From contig NC_089458.1 in the NCBI RefSeq assembly GCF_026210795.1, positions 248,001-312,000 of the forward strand: a stretch of 64,000 nucleotides of DNA, in the 5' to 3' direction. The number at the start of each line of letters is the position of its first letter. Position 1 is the stretch's first letter. Position numbers and translations under genes: made by a program. This DNA comes from Rhizophagus irregularis (taxonomy: Eukaryota > Glomeromycota > Glomeromycetes > Glomerales > Glomeraceae). Shown here piece by piece: positions 58 to 28,884 of the stretch. The notes under the pieces are model-generated. The model searched no databases, was not told the origin of the DNA, and saw nothing but the letters and a program-made list of their open reading frames with translations.

Positions 58-1020
58 CAGTCAACTCTCTTTATAGTCACACATTTGGGACAGTCCATAT
101 TTGGTGATTATAAAGAGATGTGACTATATAAAAAATTTCTTATATTTGTATATCATAATTCCGGCCAAAAATTAACATAATTTTAGCCAGAATTATACTT
201 AAAACTTTATTGTATCGTAACTTCGCCAATATTAATCGTAGAGAGATGATCTTACCGCCATTCGATTCGTCTTGATGAGACGGTTCTAATGGTATAAAAT
301 ATATCAAAATCTAATCACTAGATTAATTTCCGAAATTAAAAAAATATTAATGGTTTTTGTGTAATAACTCTGCCAATATTGATCCTAGAAAGACGATCTT
401 ACTACCATTCGATTCGTCTTGATGAGACGAATCTAATGGTATAAGATACATCGAAATCCAATCACTAGATCGAATTTCCAAAATTAAAAAATATTAAATG
501 GTTTTTAAGTAATAACTCCGTCAATATTGATCACAGAGAGATGGAGCTTACCACCATTCGATTCGTCTCGATGAGGCGATTCCAACGAGCTATAAATCGT
601 CTTTTTACAATCACTAGGTACTGAGAAATCTAGCAAAATGTTAAATGGCGCAGTAAACGTAAATCAAGAAATATTATAATGCCGATGTTTAACATTTTGT
701 TGAATAACTCGTCGGCCAGTGATCTGAAAAGGATAAAACTACCACCATTCGATTCATCTCAGTGAGACGATTCTAACAAGCTATGATACATCTTTGTACG
801 ATTATTAGATGCCAAGTTATTTAATATATTCTTTATATAACTGTGATTATAAACGGTTCTTTTTAATATAAGATTTTTGAGGATAGGTGTGATAGTGACT
901 ATAAATAGATTGTGACTATATAGGATAGATTTTAATAATAAAGTGTTTTGAACATTCAACTGGTGTGACTATATAGTAGAATGTAACTATAATGGGAGTG
1001 ACTATAGAGGGAGTTGACTG
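58..1020 (+). repeat. Left arm: ~963 bp MITE-like unit
   Basis: The unit has TIRs at both ends (CAGTCAACTC at 58 and GAGTTGACTG ending at 1020) and TA on both flanks (56-57, 1021-1022). Its termini are rich in the word TATAGTCAC and its complement GTGACTATA. The middle holds about four tandem units of roughly 145-190 bp, each with a small hairpin of the type CGTCTTGATGAGACG at 268-282, 415-429, 564-578 and 755-769. Short open frames inside it are mirrored in the right arm and show no protein character. Confidence 0.85.
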
Positions 1021-1701
1021 TATAGATGTTTAAAACAAAAAGAAAAAAAAAAGGAGATTAAAAATTAATCTTAAGAAAGTTAAAGAAAATCTTAATGAAG
1101 ATAAATATATTGATCCTAATAGAAAACTTAATCAACTTAACCTTTTCAGTGGTTTAGAAAGTTTACAATCAAATTTATATTTTGGAATGAATATGCAGGA
1201 TTTTATAGTTTTAGTTAACTATGCTTTGCTCTTTTTTTATTAATTAGGGAGGTATGTAGTTGACTGATGGTCAGTAGTTAAAAGGAGGTGAAATAAAAAA
1301 TTAATTTTATCCTAGGAGTCAGGTTTTTAGAGCAAGGTTGATAGAACGTCTTAAATGTATGTTACTATAGTAAGTCTCAAATCCAGTTTAAAACTTATAA
1401 AAGAAACTAGTTGGTTAGTATTCATTAGTTTAGAATCTAGTACCTGCAACTATTATTATAAAATTTTGTATATTTGTATGGTTCATTACAATTTATCGTT
1501 AATAAAAAATAAAAAATAAAAAATAAAAAGACAAATCAGCCCATATATAGAGTACAAATTATGATCTCATGTAGTCGCAATTTTTTGAAGTAAGGAAATT
1601 TTTATAAATCACCAAAATTAAGCATTTCTATAATAAAAAAAAGGGTGCTTAATTTCAGAAGTATATGGTAGGTTCAATATTAAAATTTTTAAAAATTGCT
1701 A
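1021..1701. other. Non-coding AT-rich spacer
   Basis: This lies between the left arm and the inner transposon. It is A-rich with short homopolymers and a small AAATAAAA run near 1500. I see no coding or structural feature. Confidence 0.5.
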
Positions 1702-4626
1702 TGGTGCCAGAAGTCTATATTTGACAATCACGTGATTTTGTTTCAATTTTCTGAGAACTGAACCCTGAATCACATGACTCAAAATCGACCAATAAAATCC
1801 GAGATTTGAAATTTCAATTAGATTTTTACACGTAAAAACGTTATGTGTTTTCATTTTAATTTTAATTTCACTGTAGGAAAATGACACTTTTCAGCAACAT
1901 GAAAGCAGTTAATACTGCTATAAAAGTTATACCAGTCAACCATAAAAGCAGTTAAGTATGTAAAATATGCATTAATTAATGCCTTTATTATTAATATGTA
2001 CTTATGTATTATCTAACTGATCCATTATTCTTTCAATATTTTCAGGTAAACGACGATGTGATTTATATTTATTAACAGCCCACTCGGCAGTCCTACCTTC
2101 CAATCCTTTATTGTATGCATCCATGTATCTCCATAATTTGCATGCAAACTTGCAGATAGTTGTTACAAGAACACTTATGAGAACTTCTGGAACCTGTATC
2201 AATAAATCATTGAAATTATAATTGCATATCCGCCTTATTTCCCATTTTGCAAAACCCCATGCCAGTACCGTTCTATAAAGTTGCATTCACAATAGAATTT
2301 TGGGTAACGCTCAAAAATATGTCCTGCTTTAATTAATGCCTCTTCCAATATTGACCATTGTTCACAAAAATCTGGTTGCAGTGACATTATTCTTCGTGCA
2401 CAACAGTCTAGTCTTTCCAGATCAATATTATCATCTTGTTTTCCTGAACACTGCTTACACATCAAACGAATACTTTTCTCTGACCAAAGGTTACGTTCTG
2501 TAAGTACTTGCTTGATGATATCCTTTGGTTTTCCTTTTAGTTTATGATTACCTGGAAATACTATTAATTGTGTCTGCTTCTCTCCATTTTTATTGATATA
2601 CCATCCATCACGCATTTTAGGTTGTGCTCCTCCAGGATTCAAGTTGATTCTTGTCGCAATTAGTGCATCAGCTGCCATTGCATTGTGATTTGTAGATTGA
2701 TTAAACAGAAAACTCCAACACAACCAGGGTGCAGTATCTCAAATATTGGAATAGCTTGATGCACGAGCTATTTTTGCAAATGAAAAATCCTTAATCAGGG
2801 TTTGTTTTTTTTTCTTTGTTTCTGAGATTTCCAACCATATTTAATCTTACCTGATCTAACATATGCTCTGATTTCCAATATCCATCTGTTTGTATAGAAC
2901 GAATAACAAAAGCCTCTTTATTTTTTATGTGTGAATTTTCCTGTAACTGTTCATTGGATAATCGTAGTAACCCGTGACATGGACAAAGGAAGGCTGAAAT
3001 CATGATGGAACATCCCTGGTGCTTTGAGCGTAGGATATCTTCATTTTCTCTCATTCAGATTTTTCGTTACCTATTATTTGCATGTGTCACTTGGATTAGT
3101 TCTTTTTCTCCTGGCTTAAACTGGGATTCTGAAACAATATCCATCATATCACCATTAAATTCTTTTATAAACTTTTGATATTCAAACATCCTCTTCAACT
3201 ATTCCTTTCTGTATAGCACTACGTCCAGTCGCTCATGCCCATCATAATAAACTCCCTTTCTTCTTTCATCATACTTATATCCCCACAAATGTATGTAATT
3301 TCGGCAAGTTTTCTCAGAAATCGTGTCTTTTTTAATATGACCCGTTAATTTAGGAAATATTATTCCTTCAATATACATTTTCAGGTTTCCAGGGTATGCG
3401 ATTCTGGTTTTTGTTGTCGCAACCATGTTAGGCATTCTTCCTTAAAGTCTTCATCATTTAGCAAACTTTCCAATTTTGTATGTTTTCCTTGATGATAGAT
3501 AAGAAGCTCTTCTATCTGTATAAAGTGGGCTCCCCATTTTCGAATACATCTTGCAATATAATCACCTTTAACCCACATGGTTTGTGCAATTTGATTACTG
3601 GCATCCATTTTACCCTGACCATCTAATAATAATTGTATATACCTACGTATACTTATTAGACGACGTAAATAATCATAGGTAAAAACATTTTTATTTGTTT
3701 TTGCTGATTTCGTTATTGAGCATTGTTGATTTATTTCTTTTAAACGTATTTGTAGATTTCTTGTAAGCTCTTCAGTAATTAAAGAACGATTTTGTGTTTC
3801 GGAAAATAAAAATGGAGATGGAGGTGAAAATTGTAGCTGCAATGATTGTGGTGAGGGCATACTAGTTGATATTTCAGTACTTGTAAATAATGTATCAAGC
3901 GTCCTTATTCCCTTTGTATCAAGTGCCAATTCTTCTTTTTTTTTTGTTTCTTCAGACTGTATCTCTCAAAGTGCTGCTCTAATACAACTTGTAGCATTTT
4001 CTTGCCAACAAAGAACTTCAGCAATATGTCTTTTTCCTACCTTTTCAAACTCTTCATTTGTCCAATCATTAATATTCTCATCCTCTATCCAATTTCTGCC
4101 AATTTCACTCTCTTTCCTTTCTTCAACAGCCTCTATCTCAGTTTCTGCTTGATCTTTTGATATGTAACAACTTCTTTTTCTAGATATTTGGCTAACCTGT
4201 AATTGTCTTTTGGTTTTGTGTGGCATTTTAAAAGAATGATTATTGGCTATTTCGAATAAAAGTTTCTCACTTACATGTGAAAATCAAAAAATTTCTCATG
4301 ATCACTCATTTCTCTCATGAATATAGTTCGGGCCGGCACTAAAATTATCATAACTTTGGCTCGAATTATAAAAAATTTTGGCCAATAAAATCGCATTCAC
4401 GTGATATGATTATTTCAAATTTTGGCCAATAATATGAAAATCATCCGATTTTAAATGCTTATAACTTTTTATGTATATATTTTTTTGGAAATCTGGCCGG
4501 TAGTTTAATAGTATTTATTATGGAGAACAAAGTTACCGGTTTATTTTTGTAAAAATCTTATTTTTTTTTTGTTGAAAGTTTTTCAAGTGTTACAATTTTA
4601 TTGTTTAGTATAGACTTCTGGCACCA
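1702..4626 (-). mobile_element. Inner Tc1/mariner-like transposon (decayed)
   Basis: It is bounded by perfect inverted repeats TGGTGCCAGAAGTCTATA (1702-1719) and its complement (4609-4626), each with TA directly outside (1700-1701, 4627-4628). It contains a transposase pseudogene on the minus strand. Its TIRs are unrelated to the CAGTCAACTC ends of the surrounding arms, so it is a separate family. Its right end is only about 20 bp from the right arm. Length 2925 bp. The TA duplication and the DDE-type transposase together support the IS630-Tc1-mariner superfamily. Confidence 0.8.
2002..4226 (-). pseudogene. Broken DDE transposase, IS630-Tc1-mariner type
   Basis: Five or six open blocks on the minus strand (4226-3966, 3929-3381, 3435-3199, 3054-2791, 2723-2235, 2286-2002) read in order as one protein of roughly 700 residues interrupted by stops and frame changes. 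The N-terminal block is Lys/Glu-rich. A middle block has a DGYW motif, a likely first catalytic Asp. A later block has FNQSTNH, where related transposases usually carry Asp in place of the Asn. The next block has the NFIERYW motif with the usual third acidic residue. The last block is frame-shifted near 2240-2290. With the second acidic residue replaced and several breaks, the copy should be inactive. The family call rests on motif recognition only. Confidence 0.8.
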
Positions 4627-4647
4627 TAATTGGTATTTTTATATATA

Positions 4648-5605
4648 CAGTCAACTCCCTCTATAGTCACTTCCGTTATAGTCACATTCTACTATATAGT
4701 CACACCAGTTGAATGTTCAAAACACTTTATTATTAAAAACTATCCTATATAGTCACAATCTAATTATAGTCACTATCACACCTATCCTCAAAAATCTATT
4801 AAAAAGAACTGTTTATAATCACTGTTATATAAAGAATATATTAAATAACTTGGCATCTAATAATCGTACAAAGATGTATTATAGCTTGTTAGAATCATCT
4901 CACTGAGATGAATCGAATGGTGGTAGTTTTATCCTTTTTGCGATCACTAGCTGATGAGTTATTCAACAAAATGTTAAGCATCAGCATTATTATATTTCTT
5001 GATTTACATTTACTGCATCATTTAACATTTTGCTAAATTTCTCAATACCTAGTGATTGTAAAAAGACGATTAATAGTTCGTTGGAATCGCCTCATCAAGA
5101 TGAATCGAATGGTGGTAAGCTCATCTCTCTGTGATCAATATTGACGGAGTTACTACTTAAAAACCATTTAATATTTTTTAATTTCAGAAATTGATCTAGT
5201 GATTGGATTTCGATGTATTTTATACCATTAGATTCGTCGCATCAAGACGAATTGAATGGTAGTAAGATCGTCTCTTTAGGATCAATATTGGCAGAGTTAT
5301 TACACAAACACCATTGATATTTTTTAATTTCGGAAATTAATCTAGTGATTGGATTTCGATGTATTTTATACCATTAGAACCGTCTCATCAAGACGAATCG
5401 AATGGTGGTAAGATCACCTCTCTACGATTAATATTGGCAGAGTACGATACAATAAAGTTTTGAGTATAATTTTTAGCTAAAATTATGTTAATTTTTGGCC
5501 GGAATTGTAATATACTAATATAAGAAATTTTTTATATAGTCACATTTCTTTATAATCACCAAATATGGACTGTTTCAATTGTGTGACTATAAAAAGAGTT
5601 GACTG
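4648..5605 (-). repeat. Right arm: ~958 bp MITE-like unit, inverted copy of left arm
   Basis: This is an inverted near-identical copy of 58-1020, again with CAGTCAACTC/GAGTTGACTG ends and TA flanks (4646-4647, 5606-5607). The same series of hairpin-bearing tandem units appears in reverse order, with single-base differences that show independent decay. Confidence 0.85.
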
Positions 5606-5995
5606 TATTAGGAAACAGAAATCATTATAAGTTTGAAGCGAAAAAAAGATTATAAATAAACTTTTATATTATTTATTTGATATAACACAAATTTATTTTT
5701 ATCTAATGTAACATGAAATTTCAATGACGTGATGTATGGAAATAACCAAATATTGTCACATAACACTATTTGATAAGTCCTTTAAAAATATATATAGTTT
5801 TTTACTTTACTCTAGATAAAAAATGAAAAAAAGCTAAAATTGACAATTGTAGTATTTTTTATATATAATAATATTAATATAACTTATGTAAAAAACATGA
5901 CTTATAATTAGCTAATAATATTTATTTTTTTTTAAGGTGCTAATAATATTTATACTAATTATATATAGTATAAATAATTATATATTTATATATGA

Positions 5996-6150
5996 ATGCT
6001 TTGCAGTAGAAAGGAACGAAACTACTAAAAAAATTCAAATTTTCTTCTATATGCCAAAAATATTCTAAATGCTATAATTTGTTCAGATTTTATATTAACT
6101 CATTTTTTACTTTTTTTTTAGTAGTTTTGTCTCTTTCTACTGTAAAGCAT
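5996..6150. mobile_element. MITE-like element, ~155 bp
   Basis: The left end ATGCTTTGCAGTAGAAAG is matched by the right end (6112-6150), whose complement reads ATGCTTTACAGTAGAAAG. The inverted repeats run about 38 bp, ending in A/T runs. No open frame and no clear target duplication were found. Confidence 0.7.
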
Positions 6151-6239
6151 CCATATTTTTTAAAAAATTTGGTAATTATAAATTACTAGAATTACAAGTT
6201 ACATATTTATATAAAAATAGGAAATTACCAAGCCATATA

Positions 6240-6896
6240 CAATGGGTTACAAAAAGTAACCGACCACCTAAAAATTAAATAAAATTAAATATTCTCATTA
6301 ATAATTTTATTTTTATTTTAAAATTAAAAGTGTAAAAACTTATTTTAAACCATTTTCTTACTTGATTAATGTTAAAATTGTATATAAATACTTAATTTTC
6401 AGAGTAGAAAAAATTTTAACATTTTAACCAAATCAGATAGAGTAAAATAGGTATAGAAAATTGATTTCTTGACTAAAAATTAGCTTATTTTCAAAAATTC
6501 AGAAAGATTCAATCAGTAGTTGTTAAGAAATCCACTTTTAAAAATCAGCAAAATTGATGATCTACATATAAAATTATAAGAATTTCACCAAAATTCATTG
6601 ATTTTAAAAGTAGTTTTCTCAACAACTACTGATCGAATCTTTCTGATATTTTGAAAATAGACAAATTTTAAGTCAAAGAATCGATTTCTGGTATTTATAT
6701 TACTATAGCTGTTCTGATTAAAAAGTTGAAATTTTTTTTACTTTGAAAATTGAATATTTATACACAATTTTATTATTAATTACGTGAAAAAAATGTTCAT
6801 AAAATGGATTTTACATTTCTAATTTTAATATAAATATAAAATTATTAATGAATTTATTTAATTTTTAGGTGATCGGTCACTTTTTGTAACCAACTG
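6240..6896. mobile_element. Fold-back MITE, 657 bp, Tc1/mariner-like ends
   Basis: The left end is CAATGGGTTACAAAAAGT; the right end read in complement is CAGTTGGTTACAAAAAGT. Both are flanked by TA (6238-6239, 6897-6898). The inverted similarity continues almost to the centre (about 6470-6560 pairs with 6600-6700), so the element could fold into one long hairpin. No coding capacity. Confidence 0.85.
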
Positions 6897-8520: not shown

Positions 8521-8695
8521 AATTTGAAATTATACTTTTCGTCAAAATGACAAAATACTAATTAAATTTATTTTGACAAACGTAATGTATTTTGACAGAC
8601 GTAATTAATTCATAGTAATTTTATAATAAATAGTGAATTGGTCCATTCGCCGAAATACAATATAATTAATTAGCGGAGAAGTATATTTGAAATAG
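8521..8695 (+). repeat. MITE-like arm left of hAT remnant
   Basis: This ~175 bp block recurs in inverted orientation at 10403-10570, beginning with AAATTATACTTTTCGTC and containing ATGGACCAATTC in complement. Its own ends are complementary to each other (TATACTTTTC and GAGAAGTATA), as expected of a small non-autonomous element. Confidence 0.7.
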
Positions 8696-9500: not shown

Positions 9501-10400
9501 TATTAAATAATATGATAAAACAAATAAAACTTAAATTGGAGAATTATTGGAATATAATAGATAATAATTCCAAAGTATTTGCATTTTTTGATTTATATTA
9601 TAAAAATCTTTGTAAAGTAAAGTGTAAAAGTAAATAATACAGTCAACTCTCTATAAATGCATTCCCCTTGGGACCAGGTATAAGAGTGCATTTAAAGAGG
9701 GTGTGCATTTATAGAATACATATAAATCTATATAATATTAATCTAAAATTAAGGTAATACAAAAATTTTATAAGTAAACTATATAAAATTTTTTTTATAA
9801 AGGGTGCATTTACAGAATACATATATATAAAAACTGTGCATTTAGCATCAAGGTCCAAGTTGGGACTAGATAAAAGGTGCATTTATAGAGGGTGTGCATT
9901 TATAGAGGGTGTATTTATAGAGAGTTGACTGTAATACTATATTTTCAGAAATTATTAAATTAGTAGTAGAATTAAATTTGTTATTTAATTCACTTTCAAT
10001 GAAAGTTAATTCAATATTAAATTTTATTTAACAAAAACTTCTATTATTATCTTATTTTAGCACTAGTACAAATACAATTTTATAGTCAAATGTCTTATTT
10101 ATTAATTAGATTTAATAGTAATCAAAATACTTCAATTCAACAAAAAGATGAAATTAGGAATCTTGCATATACTTCACTTGATATTGCACTATTAGAATGG
10201 TGAAAAGCACATGAAACAGAATATTTTCTATTATCAAAAGTTGCTTAAAATCATTTAAATATTATGGCAACTTCTGTGTTGTGTAAACAATTATTTTCTA
10301 TAGCAAGCCCTACAATTAAAAAGTTAAGAAATAGATTAACTGGAAATAATACAAGAGTAATTCTGTTTAAAAAGTTGGTTAGAAGAAAAAATAATTTGAT
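9500..10400 (+). pseudogene. hAT-family transposase remnant (C-terminal half)
   Basis: Upstream of 9640 the plus strand encodes YWNIIDNNSKVFAFFDLYY, similar to the conserved YW...LDPRFK region of hAT transposases. After the MITE at 9640-9931 the reading continues with several stops. At about 10180-10370 it encodes segments like ETEYFLLSKVA and MATSVLCKQLFSIASPTI, followed by KLRNRLTG. This matches the hAT C-terminal dimerisation domain, where the usual form is SxxSEQLFSxAG. Stops, frame changes and the insertion make it non-functional. Assignment is by motif recognition. Confidence 0.75.
9640..9931. mobile_element. MITE, 292 bp, CAGTCAACTC ends and TA duplication
   Basis: It begins CAGTCAACTCTCTATAAAT and ends with AGAGAGTTGACTG, with TA at 9638-9639 and 9932-9933. 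The ends equal those of the 58-5605 structure, but the subterminal word differs: here GTGCATTTATAGAG is repeated about seven times in place of TATAGTCAC. It sits inside the hAT transposase remnant, so it inserted after or during that element's presence here. Confidence 0.9.
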
Positions 10401-10402
10401 AT

Positions 10403-10570
10403 TGCAGTTATACTTCTCTGCTAATTAATTACGTCATATTTCAGCGAATGGACCAATTCACTATTTATTATAAAATTACTATAAATTAATTACGTCTGTT
10501 AAAATACATTACGTTTGTCAAAATAAATTTAATTAGTATTTTGTCATTTTGACGAAAAGTATAATTGCAG
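10403..10570 (-). repeat. MITE-like arm right of hAT remnant
   Basis: Inverted copy of 8521-8695. Its ends TTGCAGTTATACTTCTC and (in complement) CTGCAATTATACTTTTC form TIRs and are flanked by TA, so the arm looks like a complete small element by itself. Confidence 0.7.
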
Positions 10571-27143: not shown

Positions 27144-28122
27144 TACCCTATAAAAAGTATTATACTTAAAATATATTTAAAATATACTTAATTTAAAATT
27201 GCAAAATACTTATAATATATTTTTAATATATCTAAAATATACTTAAAATTATCTTAAAATATATGTCTAATATATTTAATTTTTGTTCATATACTTAAAA
27301 TATATTTAAATTATATTTAAATTAAAATTTAAGTATATTATAAGACTATTATAAGTATATTCCTCCACTCCAGTGAACATAAGTAAATTGGTTATATTTT
27401 TTATGTATTTAAAATATACTTAAAATATATTATGAAATTTATAAGTATATTTTAAGTATATAAAAAATATATCTATAATATACTTAAATTTTAATTTAAG
27501 TATAATTTAAGTATAATTTAAGTATTTAGGCAAAAATTAAATATATTAAAAAGGGTTTAAAATTTGAACGCATTTGCATTTGAACGCATTCCTCTTTTTG
27601 AAAATTTTTAAATAGTAAATTTGTCGATCATTTATGATCACGTTATGATTAGCAAATATACTATTTAATAATTTTCAAAAAGGGGGATGCGTTGCAACAC
27701 ACCTGCATAAAATTATTATTTCCTATTAAAAATATATTTTAAGATAATTTTAAATACATTTTAAGTATATTATACTAAGTATATTTTAAATGGCAATTTC
27801 TATTTGTACACAGAGTGTTTAAACACGGGTCATATTAGTAGATTAAAAACGGCATTCAAAACCTCATTTAATGCCTTAAGTAAACTTGCAGAGCAGGTGA
27901 AAATACATATATTTATCTGTAATATAATAAGAATAAAAAGTAAAAGAGTATAATGTCGGTAGCATTCAATTTCAAATTAAAAAACAAAAAATTAGTCTAT
28001 TAAAAATTATATTTATATGACCTGTGTACAAAGACCCTGTGTAAACTTAGAAATTTTCATTTTAAATATATTTTAAAAAGTTTTTAATTATATTTTAAAT
28101 ATAAATACTTTTTATAAGGGTA
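27144..28122. mobile_element. Inverted-repeat element, ~980 bp, with nested palindromes
   Basis: The left end TACCCTATAAAAAGTATTAT pairs with the right end, whose complement reads TTACCCTTATAAAAAGTATT. TA lies at both junctions. The interior left part is dense in AAATATACTTAAAATATA-type words. Two smaller inverted repeats lie within: 27582-27693 (GCATTCCTCTTTTTGAAAA and its complement) and 27790-28060 (both ends with TTTCTA...ACACAG...GTGT...GGTCAT). No coding capacity. Confidence 0.7.
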
Positions 28123-28175
28123 ATAATTACTGATTTTTATTTTTATTTACTTTATTATAGGTCTTATTGGATAAA

Positions 28176-28496
28176 CAAGTGTTTACGCTCTTAAATTTGA
28201 ATAATTATAGTAATTTAAGAATATTTCGCTATCTATTAATCCAATCAAGACAATCTATAGCTCATTGGAATCAGCTCATCAAGATGAATTGAATGGTAAA
28301 TCGTATCTTTACATTTGATAGATGACTTTCTATTAATTTAAAACTTTATTGCATACTATAGAGCGTTCTATCAGCTGTAAAAATGTGATTTTACTACCAT
28401 TCGATTTGTCTTAATGGGCTGTCTTGATTAGATCAGTAGATAGTGAGATATTCTTAAATTACTATAATTATTTAAATTTAAGAGCGTAAACTTTTG
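28176..28496. mobile_element. MITE, ~320 bp, ~70 bp inverted repeats
   Basis: The left end GTTTACGCTCTTAAATTTGA and ~70 bases inside it are mirrored at the right end (complement GTTTACGCTCTTAAATTTAA), with under ten mismatches. Between the arms are degenerate copies of the TCATCAAGATGAAT...GAATGG hairpin motif also found in the 58-1020 arm, so the two families share interior sequence. Target duplication not clear. Confidence 0.8.
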
Positions 28497-28884
28497 TAAT
28501 ATTATGTTTTTAGTGTAATATTTCAAAATTTTACATCACCTCTGAAATATTAACTAAATTACATCTAAACAAATTTCCTGATGTAGAATTCTGAGAGATC
28601 TTGAAATTATCATCTTACTTCATCTTTTAATAGTGGTTCCTTTTTTGCTTTAAGTTAAAGATAAAATACCTCTTTTAATCACCAGTAAATTTATCTAAAT
28701 TGAAAGTCTTACCAATGATTTTATTCAAGTCAGCCTATGATTCGTAATAAATAATCAATTTGTGGATGTCTTTATCTTTAATTAATTTAAATACTTTATA
28801 TTTTAAAAATGTAAGAATAAAGTGAACAAAGTTATTTAGATAAAGGAATAGTATGATAATAAAAGTAAGAACTTCTATTATTAA

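Follow-up and report, generated by a model that had tools for sequence, protein, structure and literature searches.

Two inverted elements in an element-dense part of the window

At positions 58-5605 of a 64-kb stretch of Rhizophagus irregularis DNA (hereafter the window, with positions counted from its first letter), two inverted elements of ~960 bp, termed arm 1 and arm 2, enclose the decayed remains of a different transposon. The window is AT-rich, with a G+C content of 16-34% per 2-kb step, and TA accounts for 11.6% of its dinucleotides. Its genes for eukaryotic proteins are apparently intron-split and include those for PCNA (PF00705), an AAA_11/AAA_12 helicase, and proteins of the F-box, BTB and Sel1 types. 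Gene style and base composition would fit arbuscular mycorrhizal fungi (Glomeromycotina). Elements are crowded into the first 10.6 kb, which holds the two arms, the inner element between them, structures at 5990-6156 and 6240-6896, an inverted pair of 155-bp elements, a hAT remnant and an element at 9640-9931. This clustering looks like a property of the neighborhood rather than of the arm pair. In curated repeat work on this fungus, about half of the genome is repeats, and two-thirds of the elements were unclassified before curation (PMC11075540). Excerpts of that account make no mention of an inverted-pair arrangement.

Arm 1 (58-1020, forward strand) is 963 bp long, and arm 2 (4648-5605, reverse strand) is a 958-bp inverted copy of the same family. 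Both start with CAGTCAACTC and finish with GAGTTGACTG, and over 23 bp the terminal inverted repeats (TIRs) have two mismatched positions in arm 1 and three in arm 2. The CAGT at the start of the arms is similar to pogo/Tigger ends. An alignment of arm 1 with arm 2 in reverse complement shows identity at 902 of 956 aligned bases (94.35%); 45 transitions and 9 transversions separate the two, together with 7 gap runs. Fourteen of the transitions lie at a CpG retained in one arm, which is arm 1 in 12 cases. The divergence was not used to date the arms, because members of a family diverge before insertion as well. Chance does not account for so long an inverted repeat; the fact of the pairing is in itself less noteworthy, as the placement simulations below indicate.

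Neither arm contains an open reading frame (ORF) of at least 90 amino acids. Near its ends each arm carries nine TATAGTCAC-like motifs (at most one mismatch), for which base shuffles (500 per arm) gave a mean of 0.3 and a maximum of 3 in arm 1, and a mean of 0.4 and a maximum of 4 in arm 2. Tandem repeats reported by Tandem Repeats Finder occupy 218-579 in arm 1 (147-bp unit, 2.4 copies) and 5093-5443 in arm 2 (146-bp unit, 2.4 copies). Pieces resembling this internal repeat unit are also present at 28247-28416, inside a different inverted-repeat structure (28175-28252 and 28420-28497), which suggests that the unit is common to more than one element family. The exact ten-base end CAGTCAACTC occurs at six places in the window, all of them ends of three TA-flanked elements, namely the two arms and 9640-9931. 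Judged as miniature inverted-repeat transposable elements (MITEs), the arms are bounded by TIRs and have no ORF of the length given above, but at ~960 bp they are long for this class, and the 64 kb of the window holds two copies and one element that shares only the ends.

Boundaries and flanks of the arms

TA dinucleotides can be read directly in the sequence on the outer and inner sides of arm 1 (56-57 and 1021-1022) and on the inner and outer sides of arm 2 (4646-4647 and 5606-5607), with 17 bp lying between the inner flank of arm 2 and the nearer TA of the inner element. Each of the four arm ends is complete and borders directly on TA, and the homology of the arms to each other extends no further than the TIR and TA in four of four cases. 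Thus, each arm is a bounded unit of its own. Coordinates, alignment and flanks all agree with the initial annotation, which placed inverted arms of ~960 bp here with CAGTCAACTC/GAGTTGACTG TIRs and TA at both ends of each. Its proposal that each could move alone holds in structural terms, as both arms are complete and bounded at TIR and TA at every end.

Sequence beyond the TA flanks was compared in case the arms belong to a larger inverted duplication. On the inner side, 23 of 60 positions are identical, against a shuffle mean of 21.7, and 391 of 1000 shuffles score as high. On the outer side, 26 of 55 positions are identical, against a shuffle mean of 19.2, a value that only 9 of 1000 shuffles reach. 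We do not read this outer value as homology, because 225 of 5000 pairs of genuine AT-rich 55-mers from the window reach it too and because the local alignment score lies below the shuffle mean. On these grounds, homology extending past the arms was rejected as a candidate sign of such a duplication. In a version of the sequence lacking the arms and the inner element, neither a long frame nor a recognized repeat runs across the arm 1 junction.

A decayed element between the arms

The 3.6 kb between the arms (1021-4647) consists of ~680 bp of other DNA, a 2.9-kb element, a further 17 bp, and TA flanks. The spacer next to arm 1 (1023-1699) has no recognized feature. The inner element (1702-4626, reverse strand) is 2925 bp long, carries TGGTGCCAGAAGTCTATA at both ends, and has TA flanks of its own at 1700-1701 and 4627-4628; its distance to arm 1 is thus ~680 bp, and that to the TA of arm 2 is 17 bp. 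Its ends are unrelated to those of the arms. The enclosed element with different TIRs had been noted before and is borne out here, as is the description of a 3.6-kb segment holding an element, to which the other DNA listed above has to be added.

The coding stretch of the inner element (2005-4283, reverse strand) is transposase-like and decayed, with pieces in two frames that contain stops when read without introns. A comparison of five pieces with Pfam, carried to an E value of 10, gave three matches, all of them to models other than transposases and with E values no lower than 0.07. One piece compared with solved structures gave five weak matches, to designed barrels and a glycosyltransferase, the best at E 0.014. 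Judging by its TA flanks and by related elements, the inner element might be another TA-target DDE element.

A neighboring inverted pair with longer duplications

A second inverted pair, 3 kb downstream, has a layout like that of the arms, with small inverted elements placed around a decayed transposase piece. Its left copy (8531-8685, forward strand) and right copy (10409-10563, reverse strand) are each 155 bp long, have TATACTTYTC ends, and are identical at 147 of 155 bases. The pair was found as an inverted repeat, and the exact ends and duplications were seen by eye and then checked computationally. The left copy is flanked by the 8-bp duplication TTTGAAAT and the right copy by ATTGCAGT, the flanks of each copy matching one another at 8 of 8 bases. 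An 8-base match at that offset is expected by chance with a probability of ~1.5e-4 from composition, and was seen at 1 of 2802 local background positions.

These duplications separate two histories that TA flanks leave confounded. En-bloc movement of such a pair predicts matching outer flanks together with a mismatch between the outer and inner flanks of each copy, and the reverse is observed. The two 155-bp copies are therefore independent insertions.

The pair encloses the hAT remnant and the CAGTCAACTC-ended element at 9640-9931. The remnant (10219-10404, forward strand) is predicted to carry the hAT C-terminal dimerization domain (PF05699, E 6.7e-5), provided that one stop is read as X. 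Read in this way it scores 23.1 bits against a cut-off of 21.4, whereas the part after the stop alone scores 14.3 bits (E 0.036), below the cut-off.

Other elements in the window

The third element with CAGTCAACTC ends (9640-9931, forward strand) is 292 bp long, has TA flanks and contains the subterminal motif GTGCATTTATA. It shares its ends with the arms, differs from them in its interior, and stands singly. A largely self-complementary element of 657 bp at 6240-6896 also has TA flanks, with ends like CAGTTGGTTAC. A short inverted-repeat structure at 5990-6156 has 44-bp arms that are 89% complementary. Elsewhere in the window, overlapping AT-rich inverted and tandem repeats are densely clustered at 27156-27772.

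Searches for relatives found none among viral contigs, genome contigs, plasmids and phages, collections of viral, bacterial and archaeal DNA that have little bearing on a fungus. The exact end-pattern had no match in the viral or genome contigs. Peptide patterns matched seven stretches in the viral contigs and eight in the genome contigs, all of which failed a tblastn check. A text search of the literature for the ten-base ends returned no transposon title among the matches listed.

Origin of the arm pair

The arms have the TA target site and the terminal inverted repeats of non-autonomous Tc1/mariner-pogo (ITm) elements. The likeness to such elements and to MITEs extends to the short TIRs, the TA flanks, the lack of an ORF of at least 90 amino acids and the repeated subterminal motifs. 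The arms differ from them in being ~960 bp long and in containing internal tandem repeats with units of 146-147 bp; no autonomous partner turned up. We tentatively assign them to a Tc1/mariner or pogo type because of the TA target and the end structure. Flanking TA is in keeping with the IS630/Tc1/mariner group, to which pogo belongs (PMC7325037), and Tigger elements combine TIRs of ~20 bp with TA (PMC9219625).

Most probably, then, the arms are non-autonomous Tc1/mariner- or pogo-like elements that were moved in trans and inserted separately at TA targets. In the region 58-5605, three elements would have inserted separately into a transposon-rich stretch of this AT-rich genome. One non-autonomous family would have contributed two copies, 3.6 kb apart and in opposite directions, and a different TA-target transposon, now decayed, would lie between them; the order of these events would be a matter of interpretation. 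Each arm may have been a passive substrate of a transposase that is encoded elsewhere and acts by cut and paste at TA; the repeated TATAGTCAC motifs are likely binding sites for it. Random placement in 64 kb yields an inverted neighboring pair within 3627 bp in 5.5%, 15% and 28% of runs when two, three and four elements are placed, respectively.

Several points weigh against separate insertion. The outer TA flanks fit en-bloc movement equally well, TA being too short to distinguish this from separate movement. The value of 5.5% is lowish for a model with two copies, and what the third element has in common with the arms is limited to the ends. In the neighboring pair, the outer flanks TTTGAAAT and ATTGCAGT have 5 of 8 bases in common, although they do not match exactly. 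Finally, we infer the independence of the arms by analogy with that pair, which belongs to another family and is one case of one, being the sole pair in the window that was put through the duplication test.

The initial annotation had read the layout as that of a composite transposon. On that reading, transposition uses the outermost ends, at 58 and 5605, as a pair, and a 5.5-kb unit with cargo has moved or can move en bloc. Complete inverted copies of one element do flank a segment here with TA at both outer edges, and paired Ac ends in maize are described as moving the DNA between them (PMC9910405). Long cargo is likewise moved by an engineered Sleeping Beauty vector in which two complete elements stand head to head and the inner ends are disabled (PMC4229213). 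The same TA, however, stands at both inner edges, where the intact arm ends would let movement of single arms compete; the coding stretch of the inner element is broken, and the look-alike neighboring pair arose by independent insertions. The collections searched, which say little about a fungus, hold no second copy of the unit. As it stands, the composite interpretation is unsupported, and we regard movement as a macrotransposon as improbable. The more specific proposal of a natural eukaryotic composite, in which two complete, non-autonomous, inverted TA-target arms are co-mobilized in trans with an unrelated transposon as cargo, seems to us quite improbable.

It is also conceivable, if quite unlikely, that one event, such as an inverted duplication or a single arm's aberrant (alternative) transposition, produced the inverted pair, whose members diverged later. 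The inverted orientation, the shared family and the 94.35% identity would be accounted for, and maize provides a known case of alternative transposition (PMC4270019). Outside the arms, no homology stands up against the real AT-rich controls, so that a duplication would need to have stopped exactly at TIR and TA on all sides, whereas ordinary insertion gives such stops anyway. An origin of 58-5605 as a single large element, with terminal inverted repeats of ~960 bp and the inner transposase as its own, is very unlikely indeed. Long inverted repeats are known in the superfamily, those of Tec measuring ~700 bp (PMC7325037), but on its inner side, too, each arm finishes in a full terminal repeat with TA, and the inner element is bounded by different TIRs and its own TA flanks. 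The arms are thus unlikely to be the long terminal repeats of one large element.

Comparison with known systems

The likeness of 58-5605 to bacterial composite transposons flanked by insertion sequences is one of layout only; the arms contain no transposase gene. Sleeping Beauty shares with the arms a TA target. Its "sandwich" vector likewise has two complete head-to-head elements around cargo, and differs in being an engineered construct whose mutated inner ends confine cutting to the outer ones (PMC4229213). We also weighed foldback elements with composite terminal repeats, such as Tm1, as a model for the arms but discarded them, the repeats there being the termini of one element and the duplications 9 bp long (PMC3169594).

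Natural systems in eukaryotes offer precedents. Maize Ac macrotransposons excise and reinsert (PMC9910405), and composite insertions in maize arise through alternative transposition (PMC4270019). Ac/Ds pairs resemble the arms in that two elements of one family lie close together and enclose other DNA. They differ in that excision, which left a modified 8-bp footprint, and reinsertion are documented there (PMC9910405, PMC4270019), whereas the arms are known from their sequence alone. For AgaP2-P12MITE of Anopheles, en-bloc "macrotransposition" of two neighboring copies is proposed by the authors as the source of the MITE (PMC1562414); this case involves P elements with 8-bp duplications, and a single fused MITE rather than a bracketed transposon. 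Movement en bloc by paired eukaryotic elements is thus already known, from maize Ac, or proposed, for the mosquito P MITE. These three precedents (PMC9910405, PMC4270019, PMC1562414) weaken the view in the initial annotation that such an arrangement is rarely reported for eukaryotic MITE-type arms.

Movement of the unit as a whole, if it took place, would mean that non-coding TA-target elements can convert intervening DNA into cargo, in the manner of Ac ends in maize. Of greater use is the methodological result: a pair of another family only 3 kb away, whose 8-bp duplications allow its history to be resolved, shows that independent insertions easily mimic the layout of a composite transposon.

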